From assembly GCA_947452455.1 (NCBI GenBank), contig CANGBX010000007.1, positions 124,001-188,000 of the forward strand: a stretch of DNA of 64,000 nucleotides, given 5' to 3'. A model generated the notes under the pieces. The model did no database searches and was not told the DNA's origin. It worked only from the letters and a program-made list of their open reading frames with translations. Shown one piece after another: positions 1-15,575 of this stretch (position 1 is its first letter; each line of letters begins with the position of its first letter). The position numbers were made by a program, and so were the translations under genes. The stretch is from Beijerinckiaceae bacterium. Its GTDB lineage: Bacteria; Pseudomonadota; Alphaproteobacteria; Rhizobiales; Beijerinckiaceae.

Positions 1-887
1 CCTTGTGCGGCACGCGCAAAGGCTTCGAGATTGTCACGCACAGCCATATGGGGTGCATCAAAGCGTGTTTGTGGCTCGGCATCGCGCATCACGCGTGTGA
101 CATCCCAGCCTGTCGGATTTTCGGGATGGGTGCGGTCGCGCACTTCCATCCAGCCTTGCGAACCATAAACAGCAAAGCGTCCGGCAAAGGGTGTTGTGAG
201 AATGGCGGTGATGGAGGCTGTCGCGCCGCTTTCAAACCCGAGTGTTACGGACAAAGTATCGCCATTGCCGAAATGGGTCGCGCGTGTTGCAAGACGCGCC
301 CAAGTTTCAACAGGCTTGCCCAGAAGCGAGATCGACAGATCAACGAGATGAATGCCTGTCGCCGATAGCGGCCCGACAGGTGCATGCACAGGCGAGAGGC
401 GCCAATTATCAGCGGGTAGTTTCAGGAATTTGTCCTGACTGAAATTGCCTTCAATGGCCAGCAACGTGCCGAATTCGCCGCGCTGTGCACGTTCGCGCAT
501 CTCAACAATGGCAGGCTCAAATCGCCGCTCATGGCCAATGCCTAGAGTGACACCAGCTTTTGCGATGGCAGCAAAAGCGGTTTCTGCTTCATCGGGGTCT
601 GTGCACAGCGGCTTTTCGCAAAAGACATGTTTGCCAGCAGCGGCCGCGGCAATGATTTGGGCCGCATGTTGCTTGTGCGGTGTGCAGAGAATGATAGCCT
701 GAACATCCGCGGCTTCCAGTGCATCTTCGAAACGGGTGCTTGTGCGCAGGCCAAGTGTTTCAGCTGCAGCGCGCGCTTTGTCATTGGGGTCAATGCCCAG
801 AACAGGGGTGATGACAGAGCTGCCTTGCATCACGCGGGCCAGCGTTTGCCCCCACCAGCCAAGCCCGACAATCGCGGCCTTCAACAT
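1..887 (-). CDS. Gfo/Idh/MocA family NAD(P)-dependent oxidoreductase (3' end beyond window)
   Basis: The reading frame is open from an ATG at 885-887 leftwards off the window, giving about 295 residues without a stop. The start follows a strong GGGAGGAA ribosome site. The N-terminus reads MLKAAIVGLGWWGQ, a GxGxxG Rossmann dinucleotide motif. CEKP at residues 90-93 carries the family's conserved lysine, and TGIHLVD with H180 matches the usual D-x-G-x-H-x-x-D active-site segment. Family members oxidise or reduce sugars, inositols and related alcohols in the cytosol. It reads in the same direction as the LysR gene just upstream and away from the DapA operon. The substrate cannot be read from sequence. 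Confidence 0.9.
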   Translation of the reverse strand, partial: MLKAAIVGLGWWGQTLARVMQGSSVITPVLGIDPNDKARAAAETLGLRTSTRFEDALEAADVQAIILCTPHKQHAAQIIAAAAAGKHVFCEKPLCTDPDEAETAFAAIAKAGVTLGIGHERRFEPAIVEMRERAQRGEFGTLLAIEGNFSQDKFLKLPADNWRLSPVHAPVGPLSATGIHLVDLSISLLGKPVETWARLATRATHFGNGDTLSVTLGFESGATASITAILTTPFAGRFAVYGSQGWMEVRDRTHPENPTGWDVTRVMRDAEPQTRFDAPHMAVRDNLEAFARAAQ

Positions 888-922
888 GCATTCCTCCCTG
901 CAAGACAAGGGAGGAGCTCGCG

Positions 923-1900
923 TTAAGCGCGGCTTCGGCGTCCCGTGCCCGTCTTTCCATTATCCCACGGGGGCGGGGCAAATATGTCAACCAGAAAATT
1001 GACAAAGACCCGCAGCCTTGGCGGCATGCGCTTGGTCTGCCGGAAGACTACGGCAATGTCGTAAGCATGGGTTCGCGTCTGCGGCATGATCTCGATCAGC
1101 AAGCCTGAATCGAGCAGCGGTTGGGCGTAATAGCGACCGACTTGCACGATGCCCAAACCGCTTGTCGCCGCTGCAATCAACCCGTCGCCGCTGTTAAATG
1201 TCATATAGGCGGTCTCGGGAATATTGGTCTTGGCGACAGCATCATTCAGCTGCCATTTGCGGACCTGTCCGTTGCGGGGGCGGCGATAAGTGATGCATTG
1301 GTGATGTGCGAGATCTGCGGCGCTCAAAGGCATGCCTTTCGTCTCGATATAACGGGGTGAGGCCACCAGCACATAGTCCACCGATGCCAGTTTTCTGACT
1401 GTCAGGCTGGAGGAGGGAATGTCTCCGACCTGTATCGCCGCATCAATGTTTTCGCTCGCTAAACCAGAGATAAAATCATCCAGCACCACTTCAACGGAAA
1501 TGGCCGGATAGGCGGCAGTGAAGCGCGCAAGACGCGGAATGACCCACATGCGCCCCAGCGCCGAGGGCACGGCAAAGCGCAGCGAGCCCGATGGCGTTTT
1601 GCCACTGCGCGAGACGGCCAGTTCTGCCTGTTCGAGATCGGCCACAATGCGTTTGCAGCGCTCGTAGAAATCAAGCCCCTCCGGAGTGGGTGAGACGGAA
1701 CGTGTGGTGCGATTGAGGAGCCGCACCGAGAGCTTTTGCTCGAGCCGGATGATGGTGGCCGAGACCGCCGATGTCGTGACCCCCATGGCCCGCGCGGTGG
1801 CCGAGAAAGAGCGCGTCTCGACCACGTTGAGAAACATCAAAAGCCCGTGCAGGCGATCCATAGGCGCGACCCGATTATCAACTTCAACATTGAAACTCAT
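923..1900 (-). CDS. LysR-family transcriptional regulator
   Basis: This is a typical LysR protein with an N-terminal winged helix-turn-helix (FLNVVETRSFSATARAMGVT followed by SAVSATIIRLEQKL) and a periplasmic-binding-like effector domain. The open frame gives 325 residues. The methionine at 1861 (MDRLHGLLMF) matches the usual family start better than the one at 1900, and neither has a clear ribosome site. It is transcribed away from the DapA/GST/ABC operon that starts at 2073, the classic arrangement for a regulator of a divergent catabolic operon. The Gfo/Idh/MocA gene lies 35 bases downstream and may be co-transcribed. The effector is unknown. Confidence 0.9.
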   Translation of the reverse strand: MSFNVEVDNRVAPMDRLHGLLMFLNVVETRSFSATARAMGVTTSAVSATIIRLEQKLSVRLLNRTTRSVSPTPEGLDFYERCKRIVADLEQAELAVSRSGKTPSGSLRFAVPSALGRMWVIPRLARFTAAYPAISVEVVLDDFISGLASENIDAAIQVGDIPSSSLTVRKLASVDYVLVASPRYIETKGMPLSAADLAHHQCITYRRPRNGQVRKWQLNDAVAKTNIPETAYMTFNSGDGLIAAATSGLGIVQVGRYYAQPLLDSGLLIEIMPQTRTHAYDIAVVFRQTKRMPPRLRVFVNFLVDIFAPPPWDNGKTGTGRRSRA

Positions 1901-2072
1901 TTGAGCACAGGGTCGGGGACAAATCCACTCCCTTGGGTCTAGGCTTGGGTCACAAGAAGAAGCCGAAAGGCGGGCCGGACGATTCTCCGGCCATAGGGAG
2001 GAGTGGCTCTGGTCTCAGGTAGGCTAGGCAACCGCATGTCCCCGCACGTAGGCATGAGATGCAGGAGCCGCT
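1901..2072. promoter_or_regulatory. Divergent LysR/DapA-operon promoter region with a CTTGGGT direct repeat
   Basis: This 172-base gap separates two divergent start codons. It contains the heptamer CTTGGGT twice, at 1932-1938 and 1944-1950, twelve bases apart. A regulator binding there would sit close to the LysR start. No convincing -35/-10 boxes were assigned. The AGGAGC ribosome site for the gene at 2073 lies at its right end. Confidence 0.4.
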
Positions 2073-2987
2073 ATGTCCCTCGTCCTAAAAGGCGTGATGC
2101 AAAGTCCGATCACCCCGCTGAAAGAAGATTTCAGCCCGGACCTCGCGACATTTGAAAAAATGGTCGATTTCCATGTCCGCACCGGCGCGACAGCGATTTC
2201 ATGGCCCCACCATAAGGGCGAGTCACACAATCTGACGATTTCCGAGCGCAAGGCCATGGCCGAAGTTGCGATCAAAACCGTCAATAAGCGCGTGCCGATT
2301 TCCATTCACGTCTCAGCACTGGCGCTGGAAGACACTTATGAGCTCGCGCGTCACGCGCAAAAGTCTGGTGCGGATGCGATCATCGCGATCACGCCCTATT
2401 TCTGGAAATACCCGCTCGAGTCGATTTACAATCACTTCGTCAATCTCGGCACGACCTTCGACATGCCGTTGATTGCTTATAATTCGCCTGATTATCTCGA
2501 TGGCATCGAGTTCACGGCAGAATTGACGGAACGCCTTCTCGAAAAGCTGCCGAACCTGATCGGCATGAAGGATGCGAGTTTCAATTCCGAACGCTTCTTC
2601 GAAATCCTGCGCGTTGCTCTGCCGATGCGTCCGGATTTTGCGATGATCGCTGGCGTTGAATATTTGCTTCCCTCCGTCTGCTTGGGCGGCAAGGGCTCTT
2701 ATTCATCGGCGGGCGCCATCTGCCCGAACCTTGTCAATAATCTCTTTGCGGCTTGCGAGAGCGGGAACTGGAAGCTGGCGCGCGAGCTGCAATATAAGCT
2801 CTCGCAGCTCTGGCATTTGTTCCGCGATCAATATCCGTCTTCGCTCAAGGGTGGCATGCAGATCATGGGCCGCAATGTTGGCCCCACCCGCGCGCCGCTG
2901 CCCACAGCAAGCCCTGAACGCATCAAGCATATCGAGAAGACGCTCGCCGAACTCGGCATTCTCGACACCGAACCCCACGGCTGGTGA
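2073..2987 (+). CDS. Dihydrodipicolinate synthase (DapA) family lyase, intact active site
   Basis: A 304-residue class I aldolase of the DapA/NAL superfamily. The TIM-barrel landmarks are present: Y136 in IAYNSP and the Schiff-base lysine K166 in LIGMKDAS. Family members cleave or form carbon-carbon bonds of 2-keto acids, or dehydrate them (dihydrodipicolinate synthase, N-acetylneuraminate lyase, keto-deoxy-sugar-acid aldolases and dehydratases). The substrate-binding pocket is divergent (AISWPHHKGES where DapA has a TTGE-type loop), so a biosynthetic lysine role is unlikely. It is first in an operon with a paralogue, a GST and an ABC importer, which suggests breakdown of an imported oxo-acid. 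The start has an AGGAGC ribosome site. Confidence 0.88.
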   Translation: MSLVLKGVMQSPITPLKEDFSPDLATFEKMVDFHVRTGATAISWPHHKGESHNLTISERKAMAEVAIKTVNKRVPISIHVSALALEDTYELARHAQKSGADAIIAITPYFWKYPLESIYNHFVNLGTTFDMPLIAYNSPDYLDGIEFTAELTERLLEKLPNLIGMKDASFNSERFFEILRVALPMRPDFAMIAGVEYLLPSVCLGGKGSYSSAGAICPNLVNNLFAACESGNWKLARELQYKLSQLWHLFRDQYPSSLKGGMQIMGRNVGPTRAPLPTASPERIKHIEKTLAELGILDTEPHGW

Positions 2988-3010
2988 GCGGAAGAGAAGG
3001 GGATAAAAAC

Positions 3011-3922
3011 ATGACCAAGTTCCATTTTGGCCTCGTCCATGCGCCGCTCACGCCTTTCGTCAACGGCAAGATTGATTTCGAGACTTCTGATAAGGCAATC
3101 GACTTCCACATTGCGCAGGGTGCGGAAGGTCTGGCGATCCCGACCCATGCTGGTGAGAGCGTCAGCCTGCCGGTTGCCGAGCGCAAAGCGTTGCTTGAAC
3201 GCGCGATCAAGAAAGCTGCAGGCCGCGTGCCTGTCATTGCCAATGTCAGCGAAGCGGGCACAGGCATTGCGGTTGATCTCGCCCAACATGCAAAAGCCGC
3301 TGGTGCGGCGGCTGTTATGGCGAGCGTTCCTTATTACTGGACGCCGCCAGATTCCATGTTGATCGAACATTTTGCGGCTATTGCAGAAGCGGCTTCGCTG
3401 CCGACCTATCTCTACAATTCACCGCACGAGATGAACAATGTGAAGATCAAGACGCCCGTCGTCATGGCGCTGATTGCAAAGTCTTCACATGTTGCGGGCC
3501 TCATTGATGTGTCGATGGACTGGCAGTTCATGATCGAGGTCATCGCCGACGCTTCACGCGTGAAGCCGGATTTCCAGCTGGTTGCCGGCACGGAATATAT
3601 GATCTCGGCGCATGCAACAGGGGCAACCGGCTTTTTGGCGCCCACCGCCATTGTCGCGCCGCAGCTCATGAAGAAGCTTTATGAGCATGTGTGCAAAGAG
3701 AAATACAAAGAAGCGCATGATCTGCAGGTCGATGCAGCCTTCCTGTATCGCTTGTTCGATAAGCACGGCGCAGCAGGCCTCAAGGTCGGCGCCAAACTTA
3801 TGGCGCGCGATTGCGGTCAGGCGCGTCCGCCACTCCCCATCATGGATGGCGTGGTGATTGACGAGATTGCCCATGAGCTCACAAAAGTGAAGGCGCTCGC
3901 GACTGAAAAACGCGGCTGGTAA
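3011..3922 (+). CDS. DapA-family paralogue lacking the Schiff-base lysine
   Basis: The ATG at 3011 follows AAGGGGA; an in-frame GTG at 2984 would overlap the previous gene but is less likely. The 303-residue protein is clearly homologous to the upstream lyase (same DFH, PTHAGES, YNSP landmarks, Y135). At the position of the catalytic lysine, however, the sequence reads AGLIDVS instead of IGMKDAS, so the Schiff-base residue is isoleucine (ATT codon, I165). The codon is unambiguous in the sequence. A class I aldolase cannot form its imine without this lysine, so the protein may be a non-catalytic partner of the first lyase, a binding or regulatory protein, or use another chemistry. There is no truncation or frameshift. 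Confidence 0.88.
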   Translation: MTKFHFGLVHAPLTPFVNGKIDFETSDKAIDFHIAQGAEGLAIPTHAGESVSLPVAERKALLERAIKKAAGRVPVIANVSEAGTGIAVDLAQHAKAAGAAAVMASVPYYWTPPDSMLIEHFAAIAEAASLPTYLYNSPHEMNNVKIKTPVVMALIAKSSHVAGLIDVSMDWQFMIEVIADASRVKPDFQLVAGTEYMISAHATGATGFLAPTAIVAPQLMKKLYEHVCKEKYKEAHDLQVDAAFLYRLFDKHGAAGLKVGAKLMARDCGQARPPLPIMDGVVIDEIAHELTKVKALATEKRGW

Positions 3923-3936
3923 GGCGAGGCGATCCC

Positions 3937-4590
3937 ATGATGCGGCTCTACACAGGCATGGAATCCGGCAATAGCTGGAAAGTGCGCATTCTACTTGAGC
4001 AGCTCGAAATTCCCTATGAGAAGGTCTATGTCGACCTTCTCACTTGGGAGCACAAGAAGAGGGAGTTTATCGCCAACATCAATCCGCGCGGGCAAGTGCC
4101 TGTGCTGGAAGATGGCGAGAACCGCTTCTGGGATTCGACCGCTTGCATGGTCTATCTCGCGCGCAAGATGAACCGCACCGATTGGCTGCCGCTGGAAGCT
4201 GATAAGATGGCGGATGTCATGCACTGGATCGCGCTGGCTCATTGCGAGATCCACTTCGGTCTTCAATATGGCCGTCGTGGCGTGATGCGTGACCGCTGGG
4301 TGATCGGCAATGGCTCCAACTTGCCCGAGTACCAGAAGTTCGGTCGCGGTGCGATGAACACGATGGAGACACGTCTGTCGAAACAGGATTGGCTGTCGGG
4401 TGACCACATCACCATCGCTGATATTGCCTGCTTTCCTTATGTGTTGAACTCACCCGAAGCTGGCATTCCGCATGATGAGTTTCCGGGCATCCGCCGTTGG
4501 CTAGATCGCTGTCTGGCCATGCCGCGTTGGGCCGAGCCGCCGCGTGCACCGACTCGTGATTATCCCGACATGCCAGCGGATGCAGGCTAA
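3937..4590 (+). CDS. Glutathione S-transferase family protein
   Basis: A 217-residue cytosolic GST. The thioredoxin-like N-terminal domain has MRLYTGMESGNSWKVRILLE (possible catalytic N12/S13 region), the cis-proline motif GQVPVLED (P55) and the glutathione-binding DS motif (D66-S67). The helical C-terminal domain contains the N-capping box TIADI near 159-163. Bacterial GSTs in catabolic operons often perform isomerisation, dehalogenation or ether cleavage with glutathione. It lies 14 bases after the second DapA-like gene and 11 bases before the permease gene, so it is almost surely co-transcribed. The specific reaction cannot be assigned. Confidence 0.88.
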   Translation: MMRLYTGMESGNSWKVRILLEQLEIPYEKVYVDLLTWEHKKREFIANINPRGQVPVLEDGENRFWDSTACMVYLARKMNRTDWLPLEADKMADVMHWIALAHCEIHFGLQYGRRGVMRDRWVIGNGSNLPEYQKFGRGAMNTMETRLSKQDWLSGDHITIADIACFPYVLNSPEAGIPHDEFPGIRRWLDRCLAMPRWAEPPRAPTRDYPDMPADAG

Positions 4591-4601
4591 GGACGGCGCG
4601 C

Positions 4602-6293
4602 ATGCAGGCGGGCACGCAGAGCAAGGAAAAAAGCGGGTGGACTTGGCAAAAGTCTCTGCCGCTCCTTGGTGTGTCCATGGGTATTTTGCTGATCATCGGC
4701 CCGTTTATGGCGGGCCTTGTGCGCTCGCTCTTGCTTTGGGTGGCTGATGATCCGCAAGTCTCGCTCGCCAACTACGCCTGGCTCTTCACGGACCGGCGCA
4801 TACAGACAGCAGCAATCAATTCTCTGATTTGCGGCACGGGCGCGATGAGCATCTCGCTGGTGCTGGGCACGTCGCTTGCGTGGATTGTCAGCCGCACCAA
4901 TGTGCCGGGACGTGAGATTTTCAAAACGCTCAATCTCATTCCCTTCTTCTTCTCGCCCTATGTCGGCGCGATCGGCTGGATTTTTCTCGTCGCGCCTTAC
5001 AGCGGCCTGATGCAAACCACGACTGCCACGCTTTTTGGTGGCCCCGTCGAAGGCCCGAATATTTATTCGCTGGCGGGCGTGATCTGGATTCTCTCGCTCT
5101 TCTACACGCCCTATGTTTATCTTTTCGTCATTTCGCCTTTGCAGCGCATGGATGCGGCTTTTGAAGATGCCGCGCGCGTGCATGGCGCAGGTTTCTGGAC
5201 AACGGTGCGGCTGATCACTTTGCCGCTTTTGCAGCCGGGGCTTCTCTCTGCAGCCTTGATTGTCTTTGTCACCAGTGCCGGCCTGTTCGATGTGCCGCTC
5301 GCACTCACTGCGACCAAAGGCATCCGCACCATGCCGACAGAAGTCTTTGCGCTGGTGCGCTATCCAAGCGATTTGGGTCGTGCGGCTGCCTTCGGTATTT
5401 TCATCACGGCCGTGACGGTGGCTTTGACTTTGTGGCAGCGCGCGCATCTGGCCAAACGTCGCTACGAGATTGTGTCGGGCAAAGGCTATAAGCCGCGCGT
5501 GATTGAATTGCGCCGCTCTGGAAAAATCATCGCGCTGACCATCGAGATCATCTTTCTCATGACCAGCGTTGTTCTGCCTGTGCTGGCGCTCATTCTTGTG
5601 GCTTTGTCACCGCTTTGGACTGGCAAGTTTAATCCCGCCAATGCGACGCTCGCCAATTTCAACTATGTGCTCTTTGAATATAGCCTCACGCGCCAAGCGA
5701 TCATGAATTCGCTCTTTCTGGCTGTGACGGGCGCAACCATCGGCGTGATGATCTCCGGCCTGCAGAGCTATTATCTGGTGCGCGTGCGCTCCGCGTTCAA
5801 AAGCTTTGTAGACGCGCTTTTGGCCTTGCCGCTTGGCATTCCGGGTATTGTGCTTTCGCTTTTCTTCCTGATTTTTGCGATCCGCACCCCGCTCTATGGC
5901 ACGCTCGCCATTCTGCTCATTGCCTATATTGCGCGCTTCTTTCCCTTTGCAACGCGCACGATCACGGCGATGTTATCAGCCATTCATCCGGAGCTTGAAG
6001 AAAGCGCGCGCGCCAATGGGGCCTCTTGGGGGCAGACCATGCGGATCATCTTGCTGCCGCTCCTGCGCCCGGCGCTGATCGCGGCTTGGATCATGCTCTT
6101 CATCATTTTCATTCGGGAGCTGGGCGCGAGTATTCTGCTCTATGCCAGTGGCACGGAAACGATCTCCATCGCCATGCTCCTCCTGTCGGAAAATTCGGTC
6201 GGTTATGTTGCAGCCCTTGCTCTCATCCAGCTGGTGCTGCTGTTGATCGGCTTCTCACTCTTCAGATTGACCCGGGCGCCCGTGGTCCAATAG
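4602..6293 (+). CDS. ABC transporter permease, fused double MetI-type (iron(III)/AfuB-FbpB-like)
   Basis: The 563-residue membrane protein carries two successive binding-protein-dependent permease domains. EAA-loop-like segments are FEDAARVHGAGFWTTVRLI in the first half and LEESARANGASWGQTMRII in the second. This duplicated architecture is typical of FbpB/AfuB and 2-aminoethylphosphonate-type permeases. It forms the inner-membrane channel for the ATPase and binding protein encoded next. The start ATG follows TAAGGA. The substrate need not be iron: the operon context (lyases, GST, SDR) points to an organic substrate. Confidence 0.9.
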   Translation: MQAGTQSKEKSGWTWQKSLPLLGVSMGILLIIGPFMAGLVRSLLLWVADDPQVSLANYAWLFTDRRIQTAAINSLICGTGAMSISLVLGTSLAWIVSRTNVPGREIFKTLNLIPFFFSPYVGAIGWIFLVAPYSGLMQTTTATLFGGPVEGPNIYSLAGVIWILSLFYTPYVYLFVISPLQRMDAAFEDAARVHGAGFWTTVRLITLPLLQPGLLSAALIVFVTSAGLFDVPLALTATKGIRTMPTEVFALVRYPSDLGRAAAFGIFITAVTVALTLWQRAHLAKRRYEIVSGKGYKPRVIELRRSGKIIALTIEIIFLMTSVVLPVLALILVALSPLWTGKFNPANATLANFNYVLFEYSLTRQAIMNSLFLAVTGATIGVMISGLQSYYLVRVRSAFKSFVDALLALPLGIPGIVLSLFFLIFAIRTPLYGTLAILLIAYIARFFPFATRTITAMLSAIHPELEESARANGASWGQTMRIILLPLLRPALIAAWIMLFIIFIRELGASILLYASGTETISIAMLLLSENSVGYVAALALIQLVLLLIGFSLFRLTRAPVVQ

Positions 6294-6313
6294 GCTTTGC
6301 CAAAACAAGGGGG

Positions 6314-7357
6314 ATGCGCGTGCAAGGGCAGGGACAGCCGGAAAGTTTCGTCACCATTTCAGGTGTGACGAAGAAATTCGGCGACTTCACAGCTTTGGAT
6401 GCTTTGTCGTTCTCGGTGCGCGAGGGTGGAACGCTCGCGCTCTTGGGCCCGTCTGGCTGTGGCAAAACCACCATGCTGCGCTGTCTGGCCGGATTGGAAA
6501 CGCCCGAAAGCGGTTTCATTTCGATTGCCGGCAAAGTCGTGTTCGACAGTGCCAAGGGCATCAATCTCAATCCGGAAGAGCGCGGGCTCGGCGTCGTGTT
6601 TCAATCCTATGCGGTCTGGCCGCATATGTCGGTTGTCGAAAATGTCGAGTTTCCTTTGCGTGTACGCGGCATCTCGAAGGAGGAGCGCCGCGCGCGGGCT
6701 ATGGAAATTCTGGAGATTGTCGGGCTTGGCCAATATGCGCAGCGCTCGGCGACGCAATTATCAGGCGGCCAGCAACAGCGCGTCGCACTGGCGCGTGCGC
6801 TTGTTCATAAGCCTGCACTCGTCTTGTTTGATGAAGCCTTGTCCAATCTCGATGCCGCTTTGCGCGAGCATATGCGACTTGAATTAAAAGCTTTGCAAGA
6901 CAAGCTCGGTTTTACCGCGCTTTATGTCACGCATGATCAGGGTGAAGCGCTGGGTCTGGCGGAGACCATCATCCTCATGAACGCAGGACGCATTGATACA
7001 TCAGGTCTGGCGCGTGATGTCTTCATGAACCACCGCACTTCTTTTGCGGCGCTCTTCTTTGGTCTCAATGTCATTGAAGCGGACAAGCTGCCCGGCATGA
7101 CGGGCACGAAATTCATCGCCTTCCAGCGCGAACATGCGCATCTGTCATCTGTCACAGATAGCGCGGCGCAGAATGGTGATCTCGTTGTGCCGGGTCGCAT
7201 TGCCACGCGCTCGTTCCAAGGCCTTGTGGATGAATATGCTATTGATCTGGCGGAAGGCGTCTCGATCCGTGTGTTGGATGGACAGGGGCATTTTTCGCCG
7301 GGCGATCAGGTTCATGTGAGGATCAAAGCCGGAAATCTTTTCCGGCTCAATGATTGA
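6314..7357 (+). CDS. ABC transporter ATP-binding protein (Fbp/Pot-type) with TOBE domain
   Basis: Starting from ATG 6314 (a GTG at 6320 has better spacing to AAGGGGG), the protein has about 347 residues. It has a Walker A GPSGCGKT (45-52), Q-loop Q97 in VVFQSYAVWP, signature LSGGQQQR (149-156), Walker B LVLFDE (169-174) and switch histidine H207 in YVTHDQGE. The roughly 110 residues after the nucleotide-binding domain form a TOBE-like C-terminal region. It energises the preceding permease and the following binding protein. It is the only non-Liv, non-Mod ABC ATPase in the window and so could also serve the ATPase-less importer at 53.3-56.1 kb. Confidence 0.92.
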   Translation: MRVQGQGQPESFVTISGVTKKFGDFTALDALSFSVREGGTLALLGPSGCGKTTMLRCLAGLETPESGFISIAGKVVFDSAKGINLNPEERGLGVVFQSYAVWPHMSVVENVEFPLRVRGISKEERRARAMEILEIVGLGQYAQRSATQLSGGQQQRVALARALVHKPALVLFDEALSNLDAALREHMRLELKALQDKLGFTALYVTHDQGEALGLAETIILMNAGRIDTSGLARDVFMNHRTSFAALFFGLNVIEADKLPGMTGTKFIAFQREHAHLSSVTDSAAQNGDLVVPGRIATRSFQGLVDEYAIDLAEGVSIRVLDGQGHFSPGDQVHVRIKAGNLFRLND

Positions 7358-7371
7358 TAGGGGAGGCAGAA

Positions 7372-8463
7372 ATGACATTCGTGCGTCACGCCCTGAGTGC
7401 TTCTTTTGCTCTGATGCTTTCGGCCGTTCAGGTCATGGCGCAAGAGATTCCGGCAGCCAAAGGCCTGTCGGATACGGATCGATCCGAATTGATGCAGATG
7501 ATTGAAGCGGCCAAAAAAGAAGGCTCGCTCAATTATTCTGACACGATCATTCAGCCGACCACCAATGATGTGCTGGTGGCAGCTTTCCGCACTTATTACG
7601 GATTGCCCACGTCGTTTCCGGTGAATTACACACTGCTCACCAGTGGCGCGATGATCACGCGCGTGGAACAAGAGCTCGCAGCCAATCGCATTACCTTCGA
7701 TGTGGCAGCTATTGGTTCGCCGACATGGACATTCGAGCGTCAGAAGACCGGCGCCTTTATGAATTACAAGTCGAAGCAATATGCTTTCTATCAGGATGCG
7801 ATCAAACAGGGCCTCGGCATTGATGGCTTTTTTGTTCTGAACGGTGGTTATGCGCAGATCCCGATCTGGAACACCGAAATTCTCGACTTTAAAGGCAAGA
7901 GCTACAAAGAAGCGCTTGCTGCCTCGACGCCCGGTCGTTTCTCGATTGGCGATGTGGTGCAATCAGAATCGCATCTGACGACCTATGCAGGCTTGCGTCA
8001 GGTTTTGGATGTCGATTTCTTCAAGGAAATGGCGAAGAAAAAGCCGACCTTTGTGGGTCGCTCCGAGCAATCCGCGCAGCGTATTCTCACCGGCCAAGAC
8101 GTGATGGCTTTTGGGGGCAATCCTTCGCGCGTGCACCAGTCAAATCAGAAGGGCGCCAAGCTGAGGATCCTCTATCCGGAAGAAGGTTTTACCTTCTTGC
8201 CGCAATTGACCTTCATTCTCGCCAAGGCGCCGCACCCCAATGCGGCCAAGCTCTGGATGGATTTTATTCTGTCTGATGCAGGTCAGAAAATTCTGGCGGA
8301 CAAGGAAGCTTTGATTTCCGCGCGCGCCGGTTTTCAATCACCGATCCCCGATATCGCACCCAATTTCGCGTCGCTGAAAATCATCAAGGTTGACTGGGAG
8401 AAAATGTCCGCCCAGCAATTGATGAAATATCGCGACGAATGGGTTTCCATCTTCAACCCGTGA
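7372..8463 (+). CDS. Periplasmic ABC solute-binding protein (family 1, iron/phosphonate type)
   Basis: The ATG at 7372 follows AGGGGAGG; a TTG at 7354 would overlap the ATPase stop and is less likely. The 363-residue precursor starts with a Sec signal peptide (MTFVRHALSASFALMLSAV, probable cleavage after VMA). The body has features of family 1 extracellular binding proteins, including a conserved AANRITFDVAAIG-like hinge and the C-terminal ANAAKLWMDFILSDAGQ segment (A-K-L-F-x-D-F-L type). It should deliver the substrate to the permease encoded at 4602. The SDR gene starts 4 bases after its stop. Confidence 0.88.
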   Translation: MTFVRHALSASFALMLSAVQVMAQEIPAAKGLSDTDRSELMQMIEAAKKEGSLNYSDTIIQPTTNDVLVAAFRTYYGLPTSFPVNYTLLTSGAMITRVEQELAANRITFDVAAIGSPTWTFERQKTGAFMNYKSKQYAFYQDAIKQGLGIDGFFVLNGGYAQIPIWNTEILDFKGKSYKEALAASTPGRFSIGDVVQSESHLTTYAGLRQVLDVDFFKEMAKKKPTFVGRSEQSAQRILTGQDVMAFGGNPSRVHQSNQKGAKLRILYPEEGFTFLPQLTFILAKAPHPNAAKLWMDFILSDAGQKILADKEALISARAGFQSPIPDIAPNFASLKIIKVDWEKMSAQQLMKYRDEWVSIFNP

Positions 8464-8467
8464 GGGC

Positions 8468-9226
8468 ATGACATTGGCTAAGCAAGTCGCAATCGTCACA
8501 GGCGCGTCTTATGGTGTGGGGGCAGCTATTGCTGGCGCGCTCGGGCGCGATGGCTGGCATGTCGCCTGCACCGCGACAAAGGCAGGTAATTGCCAAGAGA
8601 CGGTTGCGCGAATTGTTGCTACAGGTGGTCAGGCCTCAGCCCATGCGTTGAACTTGCGTGCGCAGGAGTCGATTGACGCTTTGGTGGCAGAGGTCTCTGC
8701 TTCACATGGTTTGGTGACGGGCCTCGTCAACAATGCCGGCGTCAATCTGCGTCGTGATGCGGTTGATGTCTCGCGCGCTGATTGGGAAGGCGTGATGCTT
8801 GCCAATCTGACGGGTACATTTTTCATGACGCAAGCTGTCGGCCGCGCTTTGATCAAGGCCAAGCAGCCCGGAGCGATTGTGACCATTTCATCAAGTCATG
8901 GCTTGCTTGGCGCGCCGCAGCGCTCGACTTATGGCATTTCCAAAGCCGGTCTCATTCAAATGGTGCGCATGCTCGCCGTTGAATGGGGCCCGCATTCCAT
9001 CAGTTTGAACGCGGTTGCGCCGGGGCGTCTGCTGACGGATTCGCCATCGCGCGCAGGCTCTGGGTCGGATGCCGCCTATATGGCTAATATGCTATCCAAA
9101 ATCCCGCTCGGTCGGTTTGCCGATATTGATCATATTGCAGCACTTTGCGCTCTCTTGCTGGGGCCCAATGGTGCCTCCATCACGGGTCAAGTCATTCCGG
9201 TTGATGGTGGCTTGAGCGCGCAATAG
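8468..9226 (+). CDS. Short-chain dehydrogenase/reductase (SDR)
   Basis: A 252-residue classical SDR. Cofactor motif TGASYGVG (11-18), NNAG (88-91), active-site Ser in TISSSHG (141-143), and catalytic Y155-x3-K159 in TYGISKAG. It oxidises or reduces a secondary alcohol or ketone with NAD(P). It follows the binding-protein gene by 4 bases, so it is the last clear member of the operon that starts at 2073. With a keto-acid lyase family and an FAH-type hydrolase nearby, a deoxy-sugar-acid or oxo-acid degradation route is possible, but that is inference. Confidence 0.9.
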   Translation: MTLAKQVAIVTGASYGVGAAIAGALGRDGWHVACTATKAGNCQETVARIVATGGQASAHALNLRAQESIDALVAEVSASHGLVTGLVNNAGVNLRRDAVDVSRADWEGVMLANLTGTFFMTQAVGRALIKAKQPGAIVTISSSHGLLGAPQRSTYGISKAGLIQMVRMLAVEWGPHSISLNAVAPGRLLTDSPSRAGSGSDAAYMANMLSKIPLGRFADIDHIAALCALLLGPNGASITGQVIPVDGGLSAQ

Positions 9227-9352
9227 AAGCCCCGCGATTGCCAAGGGCTGACCCGCCCTTTATAGGCTCTCTTCGAATTGTCGCTGGCTGTTGGCCCGAG
9301 GGGTCTATGGTCGGCACGGAAGAAATTCCTCGGACAAGAAGGGATGAGCCAG

Positions 9353-10189
9353 ATGAAATATGCCAGCTTCCAAACAAAAGACGGTCGCGCCTCTTACGGC
9401 ATCGTTGATGGCGATCGCGTGATTGATCTGGGCGCCTCGCGCCCGCAGCTGCCGACGCTGAAGGATTTCATGGCCTCTGCGGAATTCGGCAAGGCCGCCA
9501 CTGGCACCGAGCTCAAATTCGCTGATGTCAAATTGCTGCCCGTCATTCCCAATCCGGGCAAAATCATTTGCGTGGGTCTGAACTATCAGGACCACGTCAA
9601 GGAAATGAACCGCCCCGATTCTGAAAAGCCGGTGCTCTTCATGCGTGGTGCCAATTCGCAAATGGCCCATGGTGATCCACTGGTGCGCGCCAAGGTGACC
9701 GAAAAGCTCGATTATGAAGGCGAACTCGCCGTCATCATCGGCAAGCCGGGCCGCTATATTTCCAAGGCCGATGCGCTGAACCATGTGGGCGGCTATGCTT
9801 GCTATAATGATGGCACGATGCGCGATTGGCAGCGCCACACGCATCATTGGACGCCGGGCAAGAATTTCGACAATACCGGCGCCTTTGGTCCGTGGATGGT
9901 GACAGCTGACGCGTTGGGTGATCGCGCCAAGACGTTCCTCACCACACGCGTCAATGGCGAACAGATGCAGCGCGCGAGCCTCGCGCAGATGATTTTCTCG
10001 ATTGAAGAACTCATCGAATATATTTCGGGCTTCACCACTTTGCAGACCGGTGATGTCATCGTCACCGGCACGCCGGGTGGTGTGGGTGATCGCCGCACAC
10101 CGCCGCTCTATCTGGTGGCGGGTGACAAGGTCGAAATCGAAATCGACGGCGTCGGCCTGTTGCAGAACACAGTTGTGCAGGAAGCCTGA
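9353..10189 (+). CDS. Fumarylacetoacetate hydrolase (FAH) family protein
   Basis: The ATG at 9353 has an AAGGGA site eight bases upstream; ATG 9344 is an alternative. The 278-residue protein has the FAH metal-binding residues E122 and E124 in YEGELAV and D153 in YNDGTMRD, preceded by VGLNYQDHVKEM. Family enzymes hydrolyse or decarboxylate 1,3-diketo acids, or hydrate 2-oxo-dienoates, with Mg or Mn. Examples are acylpyruvases, 2,4-diketo-3-deoxy-fuconate hydrolase and the hydratases of aromatic meta-cleavage. It lies 126 bases after the SDR gene and ends at a strong terminator, so it may be the tail of the same pathway with its own promoter. Confidence 0.9.
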   Translation: MKYASFQTKDGRASYGIVDGDRVIDLGASRPQLPTLKDFMASAEFGKAATGTELKFADVKLLPVIPNPGKIICVGLNYQDHVKEMNRPDSEKPVLFMRGANSQMAHGDPLVRAKVTEKLDYEGELAVIIGKPGRYISKADALNHVGGYACYNDGTMRDWQRHTHHWTPGKNFDNTGAFGPWMVTADALGDRAKTFLTTRVNGEQMQRASLAQMIFSIEELIEYISGFTTLQTGDVIVTGTPGGVGDRRTPPLYLVAGDKVEIEIDGVGLLQNTVVQEA

Positions 10190-10215
10190 GGCTTCTCCTC
10201 TCGCAAAAGCTTGTG

Positions 10216-10244
10216 AAAAGCCGCCCTCGCCGGGCGGCTTTTTT
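10216..10244 (+). terminator. Rho-independent terminator after FAH-family gene
   Basis: The stem AAGCCGCCC / GGGCGGCTT with loop TCGC is followed by a run of T. It closes the upstream catabolic unit before modA. Confidence 0.9.
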
Positions 10245-10278
10245 CATGTATAATTTTTGCGCCTAGGAGGAACACTGC

Positions 10279-11031
10279 GTGCGCATTGTCTTTGGTTTTT
10301 GGTTGGTTTTGGCAGCGATCGTGATGAGTGGCGTGCCAGCTCTGGCGGGCTCCACGCATGTCGCGGTGGCGGCTAATTTTGCCGATGCCGCCAAAGAGAT
10401 CGCAGTCACCTTCAAAGCCAAGACAGGCCATGAGGCCGTGTTGAGTTTTGGGTCGTCTGGTCAATTGCTGGCGCAAATCCAGCAAGGCGCACCGTTCAAA
10501 GTTTTTCTCTCTGCCGATGAGGAGCGCCCCAAAGCACTGGTTGCAGAGGGCCTCGCCTTGTCCGACACACGCTTCACTTATGCCATCGGCAAGCTTGTTC
10601 TTTGGAGCAAGAATCCGACCTTCGTGAAAGATGAGGCGACTTTGCAGGCGCAGGCTTTTTCGAAAATCGCAATCGCCAATCCTGCGGCGGCACCTTATGG
10701 CGTAGCTGCGCTTGAAGTGCTGACATCGCTCAAGCTCAATGATGCGCTGAAATCCAAAATTGTGATGGGCAATTCGATTTCCCAGACCTACCAATTCATC
10801 GACACGGGCAATGCAGAATTGGGCTTTGTCGCGCTCTCGCAATTGGTGGGGCAAACGGGTGGCTCGCGTTGGCTGGTCCCGCAAACGCTTTATGCCGAAA
10901 TCCGGCAAGACGCTGTGCTTTTGAAGTCTGGCGAAGGTGATGAGGTCGCAAAAGCCTTTCTGGCTTTTCTCAAAAGCTCTGAGGCGCGTGCGATCATCGA
11001 AAAATTCGGCTATGTCTCTGGTGTGAGTTAA
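10279..11031 (+). CDS. modA: Molybdate ABC transporter, periplasmic binding protein ModA
   Basis: The start is GTG at 10279, set by a canonical AGGAGG eight bases upstream. The 250-residue precursor has a signal peptide ending at ALA-G (about residue 23), then STHVAVAANFADAAKEI and SFGSSGQL, the ModA oxyanion-binding segments, and FLSADEERPKAL. It captures molybdate (or tungstate) in the periplasm. It is followed directly by modB and modC. No molybdenum-cofactor riboswitch or clear ModE palindrome was recognised in the short gap upstream. The window contains a plausible beneficiary, the molybdenum hydroxylase at 38.3-41.0 kb. Confidence 0.95.
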   Translation: MRIVFGFWLVLAAIVMSGVPALAGSTHVAVAANFADAAKEIAVTFKAKTGHEAVLSFGSSGQLLAQIQQGAPFKVFLSADEERPKALVAEGLALSDTRFTYAIGKLVLWSKNPTFVKDEATLQAQAFSKIAIANPAAAPYGVAALEVLTSLKLNDALKSKIVMGNSISQTYQFIDTGNAELGFVALSQLVGQTGGSRWLVPQTLYAEIRQDAVLLKSGEGDEVAKAFLAFLKSSEARAIIEKFGYVSGVS

Positions 11032-11040
11032 GCGGAAGAC

Positions 11041-11727
11041 ATGGCAGGATTATCAGCAGAGATTTGGCAATCGGTCTTTTTGACCCTGAAGCTCGCGACT
11101 TTCGCGACGCTCATCCTGCTTGCACTTGGTACACCGCTCGCTTGGTGGTTGGCGCGCTCTAAAAGCCTTTGGAAAGAGGCTTTGGCAGCCATTGTTGCCA
11201 TGCCGCTTGTTTTGCCCCCGACAGTGCTTGGTTTTTATCTGCTCGTTGTGCTGGGGCCGCAAGGCCCCGGTGGCGCGCTGGCCTCTCTTTGGGGGGCGCG
11301 CACACTCGCCTTTTCTTTCACGGGTCTCGTCATTGGCTCTGTGCTCTTTTCGCTCCCTTTTGTGGTGCAGCCCATTCGCAATGCTTTTGAAGCGATCGGT
11401 GATCGCCCGCTCGAAGTGGCTGCCACTTTGCGCGCCTCGCCATGGCGTGTTTTTTGGACAGTGGCTGTGCCTTTGGCGAGCCCCGGTTTTCTCACAGGTG
11501 CGATCCTAGGGTTTGCTCATACGGTGGGTGAATTCGGCGTTGTTCTGATGATCGGCGGCAATATTCCGGGAGAAACGAAAGTGCTTTCTGTCGTGATTTT
11601 TGACTATGTCGAAACATCGCAATGGACGCAGGCGCATCTTCTTTCAGCAGGCATGGTGGTCTTCTCCTTCTGCGTTGTGCTGGCCATGATGCTGATTGAA
11701 AAACGCATGATGAGGCGCGCCTCATGA
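11041..11727 (+). CDS. modB: Molybdate ABC transporter permease ModB
   Basis: The 228-residue integral membrane protein has five or six hydrophobic segments, the [15 protein letters not shown]-type ModB signature (here [15 protein letters not shown]) and the EAA-loop region [17 protein letters not shown]. It forms the channel for ModA-delivered molybdate. It starts 9 bases after modA and overlaps modC by four bases (ATGA), showing translational coupling. Confidence 0.95.
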
Positions 11728-12827
11728 GCGCGACGATCAAGGTTCATTTGGCAGGCCAGTTGGGGCAATTTGCGCTCAATGCCGCTTTCGAAGTGCCTGC
11801 ACGCGGCGTCACCGCGCTCTTTGGTCCCTCGGGTTGTGGCAAGACGTCTGTGCTGCGTGGCGTTGCAGGGCTGTTGCATCTGCGTGATGGCTATTGTTCG
11901 ATTGCCGGTGATGTCTGGCAGGATGCTCATCATTTTCGTCCCGTGCATCAACGGGCGCTGGGCTATGTATTTCAGGAATCCAGCCTGTTTGCACATTTGT
12001 CTGTGCGCGGCAATCTGCTGTATGGCGCGCCCAAGCAGGCTCAAGACCATGTCATTCGCTTTGACGATGTGGTCGCTCTTTTGGGGCTCGCAACATTTCT
12101 GGACCGCGCACCAGAAACTTTATCGGGCGGTGAGCGTCAGCGCGTTGCCATGGGCCGCGCGCTTCTCTCGCAGCCCAAAATCTTGCTCATGGATGAGCCA
12201 CTCTCGGCCCTTGATCGTCTCACCAAGGACGAGATTCTTCCCTTCCTTGAGCGGCTGCATGAGAGCCTCGCTATTCCCGTTCTTTATGTCAGCCATGACA
12301 TGAGCGAAGTGGAGCGATTGGCGGATCATTTGGTCTTGATGCGTGCAGGCCAAGTGATGGCCTCAGGCCCACTCAGCGCTTTGCAAAGCGATCCTTCTTT
12401 GCCACTCGTGTCTTCTCAAGAAGCAGCGGTCAGTCTGGATGCGCGCGTGGAGGCTTATGACGCGCAAGATGGCATGGCGGCGCTGGCTGTTGCGGGCGGT
12501 CGTTTCCTCGTCCCTTCAGCGCCTTTGCAAATAAGGGCCTCGCAACGTTTGCGGGTTCTTGCAGGTGATGTGAGCCTCGCTTTGGCAGAGCCAAACGAGA
12601 GCACGATTGTGAATGTGCTGCGCGCCAAAATCTTGAGCGTGCAGGAAAGCGGCGCGCATCAAATGGTGGTCGTGCTTGGGCTTGGCGAAGACGGGCAGGG
12701 CGCGCGTCTCCTGTCGCGTGTCACCGCCCGCTCCTGGCGGCTCTTGGGTTTGATGCAGGGCATGAGTGTCTATGCTCAGGTCAAAGGCGCGGCTCTTGTG
12801 CGTAAGGCGGCGCCCCCGCGCTCGTGA
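11724..12827 (+). CDS. modC: Molybdate ABC transporter ATP-binding protein ModC
   Basis: The 367-residue ATPase has Walker A GPSGCGKT (34-41), signature LSGGERQR, Walker B ILLMDEP and switch His in [14 protein letters not shown]. The extended C-terminal part is consistent with the ModC TOBE/mop-like regulatory domain. The typical ModC phrase RHLGYVFQE appears here as [18 protein letters not shown]. It overlaps modB by four bases and completes the operon; the next gene begins 94 bases later. Confidence 0.95.
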
Positions 12828-12921
12828 TCGGCGCGGCGCTTGGCTTCCGCCATTGGCGGGGCTAGAACCTCCCCAAGCTGATAGGGAGCGCAGAAATTGC
12901 GCATCGCGGGAGGAATTCACC

Positions 12922-13950
12922 ATGTTCACAGCATCGAAATGGGCTTTGGCCGGTCTGGCCGCTCTGGCAGGTGCCACATCGGCGCGTGCCGATGCGGTTG
13001 AAGATTTCTACAAGGGCAAGAATCTGTCGATCATCGTCGGCTTTTCGCCGGGCGGTGGTTACGATCTCAATGCCCGCGCGGTGGGCCGCTATATCGGCAA
13101 GCATATTCCCGGCAATCCGAAAGTCATCGTGCAGAACATGCCGGGTGCTGGATCCATCACAGCCATCAATCATATGGCGAACATTGCGCCGAAAGACGGC
13201 ACAGCTATTGCGACTTTCGCGCGCGGAACGCCCTTCGAGCCTTTGATGGGCAATAAGCAGGCGCAATTTGATCCGCGCACTCTGACATGGATCGGATCGC
13301 CCAGCCGAGAAACCAATCTCGTCTTCACCCGCGCGGCTGCCAATTTTAAAACCCTGGAAGATTTGAAGGGCCGCGAAGTCGTTATCGCCACATCGGGCGG
13401 CGGTGCGGATACAGCCACATTCCCGCTCATCATGAATGCGGTCTTCAAGACCAAGATTAAGGTCATCACCGGTTATCCGGGGGCCAGCGAAATGCTGCTC
13501 GCCGTTGAGCGTGGTGAAGCTGATGGCATGGCTGGCCTGTCTTGGGGCTATCTCAAAGTCGCGCGCCCGTCTTGGGTGGCTGAGAAAAAGGTCGATGTGC
13601 AATTGCAATTGGGCATGACCAAAGCGCCTGATCTGCCCAATGTGCCGTCCGCACTTGATCTTGTGAAAGATCCGGCCGAGCGCCAGTTCCTCGAAGTCTT
13701 CTTGGCACGATTGGCCATTGCTTGGCCGCTGGCGGGCCCCGCAAATATGCCCGCTGACCGCGCAGCTGCTTTGCGCGCGGCTTTTGCTGCGACCATGAAG
13801 GATGCCGAATATAGAGCGGAAGCTGAAAAGCAGGCGCTTGATATTGACCCTGTTTACGCCGACGAGATCAATGCCATTTTGAAGAGCGTCTATAATGCGT
13901 CTCCAGAAGCCATTGAGCGCGCGCGCCAGATTGCGGAAGCCGCGCGCTGA
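12922..13950 (+). CDS. Bug/TctC-type periplasmic binding protein (FYKGK subgroup)
   Basis: The ATG at 12922 follows GGGAGGAATTC. The 342-residue precursor has a signal peptide (MFTASKWALAGLAALAG, cleavage near ARA-D). Mature features are DFYKGKNLSIIVGFSPGGGY, the IPGNPKVIVQNMPGAGS segment and a late YPGASEMLLAVERGE. It belongs to the tripartite tricarboxylate transporter receptor family but to a longer subgroup than classical Bug proteins. No tctA or tctB genes occur in the window. The next gene, 38 bases on, is a FAD monooxygenase, so its ligand may be an aromatic acid or related compound. Confidence 0.88.
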   Translation: MFTASKWALAGLAALAGATSARADAVEDFYKGKNLSIIVGFSPGGGYDLNARAVGRYIGKHIPGNPKVIVQNMPGAGSITAINHMANIAPKDGTAIATFARGTPFEPLMGNKQAQFDPRTLTWIGSPSRETNLVFTRAAANFKTLEDLKGREVVIATSGGGADTATFPLIMNAVFKTKIKVITGYPGASEMLLAVERGEADGMAGLSWGYLKVARPSWVAEKKVDVQLQLGMTKAPDLPNVPSALDLVKDPAERQFLEVFLARLAIAWPLAGPANMPADRAAALRAAFAATMKDAEYRAEAEKQALDIDPVYADEINAILKSVYNASPEAIERARQIAEAAR

Positions 13951-13988
13951 TTTTCGCGCCAGCTAAGAAAGAAGAGAACGAGAATAAA

Positions 13989-15575
13989 ATGTCTGAGCAT
14001 TTCCAAGTGGTGGTTGTGGGTGGTGGTCCGGTGGGTGTGGGCTTGGGTGTTGCGCTGGGCCTGCGCGGCATTTCATGCGCGGTGATCGAGCCGCGCGATA
14101 CGCTCAGCCGTATTCCGAAAGGGCAAAATCTCACCCAGCGCACGATGGAACATTTCGCTCGCTGGGGCGTGGTGGAGGATATGCGTGAGGCGCGCCTCAT
14201 GCCCAAAGGCTATGCCATTGGCGAATTGACCGCCTATGGCAATCTGATGAGCGATTATTGGCATGCGCCAGCGGGTCGCGAATTGGTGCGCTCTTTCTAT
14301 TCGCAAGACAATGAGCGCTTGCCGCAATATCAGACAGAAATGGTTCTGCGCAAAAAGATTGAAGAGCTGAAAAGCGTCAATCTCATGCTTGGCCATGTGG
14401 CGGGCACCATCTCGCAGGATGCGCAGAAAGTCAGTGTCGAAATTTCGCGTGAAGATGGCTCTGACAAGCGCATCATCACGGGCGATTATCTGGTTGGCTG
14501 CGATGGCGCGCGTTCTTCTGTGCGCGATCAGATCGGCATTGCGCGCACCACGCAAGATTACGAGCAAACCATGTTGCTCGCAGTCTTTCGCTCGTCAGAG
14601 CTTGATGAGAAATTGAAGCGCTTTCCCGAGCGCTCTACCTATCGCGTCATTCGTCCCGAGCTTGAAGGCTATTGGCAATTCTTCGGGCGCATTGATGTGC
14701 CTGATGGCTGGTTTTTCCATGCACCTGTGCCGCCTGACTCCAAGATAGAGACCTTTGACTCGCTGGGTCTGATCCAAGAGGCCGTTGGACATCCTGTTGC
14801 TTGCGATTTCGAGCATTTGTCCTTCTGGCAAATGCGCGTGGCGGTGGCCAATGAATATCAGCGTGGGCGCATTTTCATTGCAGGTGACGCCGCTCATGCG
14901 CATCCGCCCTATGGCGGCTTTGGCCTCAACAATGGTCTCGAAGACATCGTCAATCTGGGCTGGAAACTTGCCGCGCGTGTGCAGGGCTGGGGTGGGGACA
15001 AGCTTCTCGAAAGCTATAGCGATGAGCGCCGTCCGGTGTTCTGGGATACGGCGAATGATTTCATCACCTCGCGCATCAAGCGTGATGCGGATTTCTTGCA
15101 TCGCTATAATCCGGAGCGTGATCGTGCCGAGTTTGAAGCGGCGTGGGAGGGTCGTGAGACCGACATCGGTTCACGCTTCCAGCAATATGAGCCCAATTAT
15201 GAAGGCTCGCCCGTGATGTTCGGGCCGTTGGGTGGAAAGAATTCCGCCCATGGTGTGCATCAGGTGAAGGCTCGCGCGGGTCATCATCTGGCACCCGTGT
15301 TACTGTCAAATGGTCAATTGACCTTCGATGCTTTGGGCCAAGGCTTTACGCTGATCGCGCTCGATGCCGATGAGGCGCAGGTCAAAGCTTTTGCGGATGC
15401 CGCGCAAGCGCTCAAGATACCCTTTGATATTTTGCGTGACACGCGCACGCACGGTCGTGAGGCCTATGAAGCCGCACTCGTTCTGGTGCGCCCCGATCAA
15501 TATGTCGTTTGGTCGGGCGAGACCTTGGATCGACCCGCTGCAGACCTTCTACGCCACTGCGTTGGCCTCGCATAA
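13989..15575 (+). CDS. FAD-dependent aromatic-type monooxygenase
   Basis: The 528-residue class A flavoprotein hydroxylase has the FAD dinucleotide motif VVVGGGPVGVGLG (8-20), the DG motif GCDGARSSVR and the GD motif IFIAGDAAHAHPPYGGFGLN. The C-terminal 120 residues resemble the thioredoxin-like domain of PheA/MhpA-type hydroxylases. Family enzymes insert one oxygen atom into phenolic or heteroaromatic substrates with NAD(P)H. It follows the Bug-protein gene by 38 bases and ends at a bidirectional terminator. The exact substrate is not predictable. Confidence 0.9.
   Translation: MSEHFQVVVVGGGPVGVGLGVALGLRGISCAVIEPRDTLSRIPKGQNLTQRTMEHFARWGVVEDMREARLMPKGYAIGELTAYGNLMSDYWHAPAGRELVRSFYSQDNERLPQYQTEMVLRKKIEELKSVNLMLGHVAGTISQDAQKVSVEISREDGSDKRIITGDYLVGCDGARSSVRDQIGIARTTQDYEQTMLLAVFRSSELDEKLKRFPERSTYRVIRPELEGYWQFFGRIDVPDGWFFHAPVPPDSKIETFDSLGLIQEAVGHPVACDFEHLSFWQMRVAVANEYQRGRIFIAGDAAHAHPPYGGFGLNNGLEDIVNLGWKLAARVQGWGGDKLLESYSDERRPVFWDTANDFITSRIKRDADFLHRYNPERDRAEFEAAWEGRETDIGSRFQQYEPNYEGSPVMFGPLGGKNSAHGVHQVKARAGHHLAPVLLSNGQLTFDALGQGFTLIALDADEAQVKAFADAAQALKIPFDILRDTRTHGREAYEAALVLVRPDQYVVWSGETLDRPAADLLRHCVGLA

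Follow-up and report, generated by a model that had tools for sequence, protein, structure and literature searches.

Two adjacent genes of the DapA family, here called A and B, lie side by side in a 64,000-nucleotide stretch of DNA from a Beijerinckiaceae bacterium (the window, part of contig C7 of a 3.05-Mb genome), and only A encodes the lysine on which the Schiff-base chemistry of the family depends. The most likely reading of these sequences, to which we assign a probability of about one half, is that A and B make up a heteromeric lyase in which B is a Lys-less partner. B has been preserved by selection as far as another bacterial family, and it is therefore probably a partner subunit and not a broken gene.

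The paired proteins and their active-site residues

Both proteins belong to the DHDPS/NAL superfamily by Pfam profile, with PF00701 extending over the whole barrel at 166.9 bits for A and 151.5 bits for B against a cut-off of 22.1, and BLASTP aligned them over 298 residues with one gap and 32% identity. This bears out the tandem of DapA-family paralogues that a sequence-only reading of the same DNA had described. That reading had placed the lysine of the first protein in the motif LIGMKDAS and an isoleucine at the lysine position of the second, and both residues were found where it had put them (Table 1); in an alignment with E. coli DapA, NanA and YagE, the lysine of the three enzymes lines up with K166 in A and with I165 in B. 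The mechanical open reading frame of B opens at GTG 2984; the orthologues align from ATG 3011, which is thus the best-supported start.

Table 1 Features of the A–B locus (positions in the window)
Feature	Position	Strand	Remark
Gfo/Idh/MocA dehydrogenase, 5' part	1-908	-	runs past window edge; family named on G067 orthologue
LysR-type regulator, divergent	923-1900	-	matches upstream of A in G067, G932, G963, G950
ORF A	2073-2987	+	304 aa, PF00701; Schiff-base lysine K166
Phe110 of A, DHDPS Tyr107 position	2400-2402	+	TTC
Predicted Schiff-base Lys166 of A, in LIGMKDAS	2568-2570	+	AAG
ORF B	3011-3922	+	303 aa from ATG 3011; Lys-less paralogue, I165
Tyr109 of B, DHDPS Tyr107 position	3335-3337	+	TAC
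Ile165 of B, Schiff-base lysine position	3503-3505	+	ATT
Glutathione S-transferase (GST)	3937-4590	+	below MaiA cut-off
ABC importer permease	4602-6293	+	two BPD_transp_1 stretches
ABC importer ATPase	6314-7357	+	start from G067 orthologue
ABC importer solute-binding protein	7354-8463	+	
SDR dehydrogenase	8468-9226	+	43% relative beside G1147 pair

Compared with DHDPS (DapA), A retains the PF00701 TIM barrel and the residues at the positions of Lys161, Tyr106 and Tyr133, and the best solved-structure matches of the B model are DHDPS chains (best E 4.5e-17, TM about 0.6, rmsd 6.7); the models, built from seven sequences, are both moderate, with a mean pLDDT of 69 for B and 76 for A. The differences from DHDPS lie at Thr44 and Thr45, which are replaced by His47 and Lys48 in A and by His and Ala in B, at Arg138, which is absent from both, at Tyr107, replaced in A by Phe (Phe110 in the window) or Ile, and at Lys161, replaced in B by Ile or Leu. 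The Schiff-base lysine on beta6 is present in all seven A proteins, and Ile or Leu occupies its position in all five readable B proteins, which places B outside the class I (Schiff-base) aldolases. Across 46 aligned proteins, most of them DapA proper, 43 have the lysine and the three exceptions are B proteins. Lys48 of A (2214-2216) sits inside the pyruvate-carboxylate loop, which reads H-H-K-G-E in A and T-H-A-G-E in B where human HOGA has G-X-X-G-E (as given in extracts of the HOGA literature). Lysine at this position, that of Thr45, was found in none of 74 surveyed relatives, and may count as another peculiarity of the catalytic chain.

No NCBIfam curated cut-off was reached by A or B among the seven families listed for each. 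Against DapA proper (EC 4.3.3.7, TIGR00674), A scored 155.7 and B 147.9 bits for a cut-off of 206.15, while for the HpaI-like aldolase (TIGR02313), KdgD and NanA the scores of A were 158.4, 102 and 79.1 bits for cut-offs of 396.7, 373.95 and 382, respectively, with B lower each time. The idea that B is a plain DapA was rejected on its residues and on these cut-offs. Two further PF00701 genes are found in the genome of the window, one of which encodes a DapA with canonical residues (307.6 bits), so that lysine synthesis presumably depends on neither A nor B. The other gene (G000:C8:13403-14278) keeps the lysine, with Arg/Ile at the Thr44/Thr45 positions and Phe at that of Tyr133, and its neighbours look by eye like TctC-type receptors. 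Two plasmid DapA-like matches (H5 and H2) also keep the lysine, belong to other operons (with a proline racemase and an amino-acid ABC importer) and were set aside. DapA annotation by homology is risky here: naming by the nearest homologue would probably label both A and B DapA-like, and despite such a label B cannot use the DapA mechanism.

Conservation, selection and distribution of the pair

In the genus, B has a match at E <= 1e-38 in six of 51 genomes, among them that of the window. Four B genes of the genus could be read, the contig of G963 stopping inside B, and the contig of G950 stops 56 bases past the last sense codon of A. The three readable B proteins besides that of the window are 99% (G067), 88% (G965) and 74% (G932) identical to it, and their isoleucine is encoded by ATC instead of the ATT of the window. 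The pair was also found, in matching order and orientation, in G1147, a 1.5-Mb genome of another family in the same order, where A is 65% identical to that of the window and keeps the lysine; B is 41% identical and has Leu at the lysine position and His at that of Tyr133. The sequence-only reading had said that a sequencing error at the ATT codon near 3503, or orthologues of B carrying the lysine, would overturn it. The former is excluded by isoleucine in three further assemblies and leucine in the distant orthologue, and none of the latter turned up among the five readable B proteins. The loss of the lysine is thus conserved in orthologous pairs (Ile in 4/4 readable genus members including the window, Leu in G1147), as that reading had proposed to check, and this supports a functional role for B.

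Purifying selection acts on B, with dN/dS values of 0.033-0.164 over six pairs (two stop codons in G965 being skipped) compared with 0-0.061 over 15 pairs for A (Nei-Gojobori, own script for both), and B drifts faster than A. The two skipped codons are in-frame TAGs in the B gene of G965 (L048:1180-2088), the frame of which is otherwise intact, and reflect either an assembly error or recent decay. A is immediately followed by B in all six loci in which the downstream side of A is readable (the window, G067, G965, G932, G1147 and, with B cut short by the contig end, G963), with 23 bases between the two genes in the window and seven in G1147. B therefore combines the sequence marks of a pseudoenzyme partner, namely a lost catalytic residue, purifying selection and pairing with an active paralogue.

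In a phylogenetic tree of 22 proteins, in which some outgroup branches are long, A and B each formed a clade (both 100/99), and together with protein X of G998 they formed a single clade (96/97) in which X groups with A (88/78). According to this tree, the duplication that separates the paralogues A and B predates the split of their host lineages, or the two have travelled together. X, the one unpaired outgroup available, is a single A-like protein with 39% identity to A that keeps both the lysine and Tyr107, and no second match at E <= 1e-60 was found in G998 (an assembly of 770 contigs, 90% complete). The clade shares a His at the Thr44 position and a C-terminal Gly-Trp. The latter ends none of the 74 survey proteins described below, and the former occurs in six of them as well, so that the clade is not its sole owner; within the clade, Lys at the Thr45 position belongs to A alone.

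Searches with B as a single protein matched 62 of 199 genomes of the family at 1e-30, three of 385 genomes of the class at 1e-37, its own included, and its own genome only among 398 genomes of the phylum at 1e-38. Residues were compared in 30 ordinary matches (28 loci from the family search, 27 of them outside the genus and one in G181 of the genus, plus two loci from the class search), and all were canonical DapA-type. Profile searches of two overlapping samples of the order returned three of 297 and three of 397 genomes (its own, G998 and G1147), while one of 240 genomes was retrieved from the class (its own) and one of 14 from the family of G1147. A scan of the whole genome collection, made with two peptide patterns only, recovered two loci of the genus and a 26% identical relative that keeps the lysine; the viral-contig scan found nothing. 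The pair is therefore rare and patchy in these samples, which suggests that it was transferred as a unit.

A control survey covered five large genomes, in which every listed PF00701 match (74 in total) was aligned and its residues compared. The Schiff-base lysine is kept in 72 of the 74. For the two exceptions, L074 (G556:C1:2822161-2823009), with Cys, and L082 (G019:C1:2746722-2747567), with Ile, no further PF00701 match is listed within 300 kb; both are thus solitary, and the survey contains no second tandem of a Lys-bearing and a Lys-less protein. L074 and L082 have His or Leu at the Tyr133 position and rank right after the canonical DapA proteins by score.

A possible A–B complex and its rivals

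In the preferred reading, A and B would form a heteromeric class I lyase of the A2B2 type. A, which carries the Schiff-base lysine, would catalyse the reaction of an imported substrate, 2-oxo or sugar-acid-like in kind, and B, itself non-catalytic, would complete and stabilise the site of A across the tight-dimer interface. Such a tight dimer is known from DHDPS (PMC11201819, in extract), and Tyr107 of E. coli DHDPS, or Tyr140 of human HOGA, enters the active site of the neighbouring chain across it (PMC3188589, in extract). The likely contribution of B would be Tyr109, the counterpart of Tyr107, in which case an A/B dimer would have one complete site, with Lys from A and Tyr from B, and one dead site with neither. 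We infer all three elements of this scheme, namely complex formation, the identity of the lent residue and lyase activity. The Tyr107 position is occupied by Phe in all six A proteins of the genus and by Ile in that of G1147, and by Tyr in all five B proteins and in the unpaired X. A strictly split active site, in which A is the sole source of the lysine, B is that of the cross-interface tyrosine and each chain alone is crippled, is possible on this pattern but doubtful.

Several observations count against the heteromer. B changes faster than A, one B gene in five has two stop codons, Tyr133 gives way to His in the B protein of G1147, and X is the only unpaired protein with which the pair can be compared. 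Tyr107 is not universal in the superfamily, with Tyr in 29 of the 74 survey proteins (the loop alignment being loose in remote members), and the Y140F variant of human HOGA is as active as the wild type according to the available text of PMC3188589. Since Tyr107 varies across the superfamily, complementation by this residue is only suggestive, and the same survey count weakened the notion that its loss from A is unusual by itself. Among the 19 Lys-bearing survey members scoring at least 207 bits, a threshold on our own profile of 46 aligned proteins, 17 have Tyr.

We also compared the loops at the mouth of the barrel, which we chose from the strand ends of the moderate B model. Between the window and G1147, the loops of B are identical at 40/62 positions (65%) versus 83/241 (34%) elsewhere in the protein, a contrast reached by 0.14% of random placements; the corresponding figures are 44/62 versus 154/242 for A, and 18/62 versus 77/241 when A is compared with B. 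These figures indicate that the mouth of B is specialised and has been kept, as an interface or as a site of its own, and they fit equally a B with its own ligand or chemistry.

The main rival, which we think rather unlikely, builds on that second possibility: B would be an enzyme in its own right, acting in the pathway of A and using the ancestral DapA pocket for chemistry that involves no Schiff base. Examples are a hydration, dehydration, isomerisation or lactone-opening step that precedes or follows that of A. It is favoured by mouth loops that are so well kept at an overall identity of 41%, yet so different from those of A, and by the block DWQFMIE and the residues H46, E49, Y108, Y109, W110, N136, D166 and S168, all invariant across the deep split within B. 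However, Tyr133 of the proton relay is replaced by His in the B protein of G1147, no obvious new catalytic constellation was seen in B, and the strict adjacency of the two genes seems, in our judgement, beyond what partners in a pathway would need. Relocation of the lysine to another barrel strand of B was considered and rejected, as no lysine occurs in the six strands predicted by the moderate model (a full barrel has eight); K145, invariant in B, lies in the loop after strand 5.

Less probable again, though it fits the heteromer data equally, is a role for B as a pseudoenzyme with a regulatory or sensory function: it would bind the substrate or the product and modulate A, or some other protein, while lending no residue. 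L074 and L082 indicate that Lys-less folds of the DapA type can have uses apart from an adjacent partner; they are, however, related to B only at the superfamily level as far as shown, and a regulatory role would leave the loss of Tyr107 in A unexplained. The reading of B as a duplicate in decay or as an artefact of sequencing is very improbable and was rejected, for although B evolves faster than A and one of the five B genes contains TAG codons, its dN/dS of 0.03-0.16, the isoleucine encoded by ATT or ATC in four assemblies, the window's included, and a Lys-less B with Leu in another family all speak against it. Thus, of the three mechanisms that the sequence-only reading had offered, the evidence tilts towards the heteromeric partner and leaves a place for the regulatory pseudoenzyme and for new chemistry.

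Heteromers in which an active subunit is joined by a dead paralogue are already known as a kind, and the published accounts cited here are drawn on in extract. In trypanosomatids, an impaired and a dead paralogue of deoxyhypusine synthase form a heterotetramer with 3000-fold higher activity (PMC3663545); family and reaction are different, and the complex is experimental there but inferred for A and B. In Arabidopsis, the beta/alpha8-barrel pseudoenzyme PDX1.2 assembles with its catalytic paralogue PDX1.3 and supports it (PMC6829848), the differences being that this vitamin B6 synthase stands outside the DHDPS family and that PDX1.2 is a heat-stress-induced plant regulator, not a member of an operon pair. 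The prozyme of AdoMetDC provides a further case (PMC5201418). Human HOGA shares the superfamily of A and B and lends Tyr140 across its tight dimer (PMC3188589); it differs in being a homotetramer with Lys196. No Lys-less or heteromeric protein of the DHDPS family was found in the titles and abstract openings of the open-access articles listed on this subject, a body of text to which most subscription journals do not belong. If the heteromeric reading is right, A and B would divide the catalytic lysine and the lent tyrosine between two chains, in a pair that is natural and under selection. They would be a bacterial model of how duplicated homomers turn into obligate heteromers, as well as a direct test of the need for the lent tyrosine.

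Gene neighbourhood

The GST, the ABC importer and the SDR reported beside the pair are present as described (Table 1). In the genome of the window and in G067, one strand carries genes for a CMD protein, a luciferase-like monooxygenase, a Gfo/Idh dehydrogenase and the LysR regulator (the three families beyond LysR being named on the G067 orthologues), and the other carries A, B, the GST, the ABC permease, ATPase and binding protein and the SDR. In G932 the genes from the luciferase-like monooxygenase through to the SDR are arranged alike, except that an additional LysR gene separates the luciferase-like gene from the Gfo/Idh gene; the contig begins at this end of the run, so that the CMD gene falls outside the sequence read. 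The best solved relatives of the solute-binding protein are annotated as binding proteins of iron ABC transporters, and the permease and ATPase look PhnU2/PhnT2-like, below cut-off. An Rfam search of positions 1-15000 of the window gave no match.

Beyond the pair itself, the window and G1147 have only part of their gene sets in common. In the 19 kb around the G1147 pair, the GST, permease and binding protein of the window have no match at E <= 1e-6, and the genes found there include an SDR 43% identical to that of the window, a second SDR, a Gfo/Idh enzyme and a zinc ADH. A different ABC importer lies about 5 kb downstream, with a permease that is TauC/SsuC-like, below cut-offs. A TcuA-like FAD dehydrogenase gene (L058:11096-12583) scores above the cut-off of NF006130 (526.8 versus 369 bits) and below that of TIGR02485 (254.6 versus 372.55); among the neighbourhoods read, that of the G1147 pair is the only one in which TcuA-like and zinc-ADH genes were identified. 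Together, the G1147 neighbourhood and the genes of the window would fit the uptake and breakdown of a small organic acid. The SDR of the window is followed by a gene of the FAA-hydrolase family (9278-10189); G067 and G932 have other genes at this place, and the FAA-hydrolase gene is thus probably outside the conserved module.
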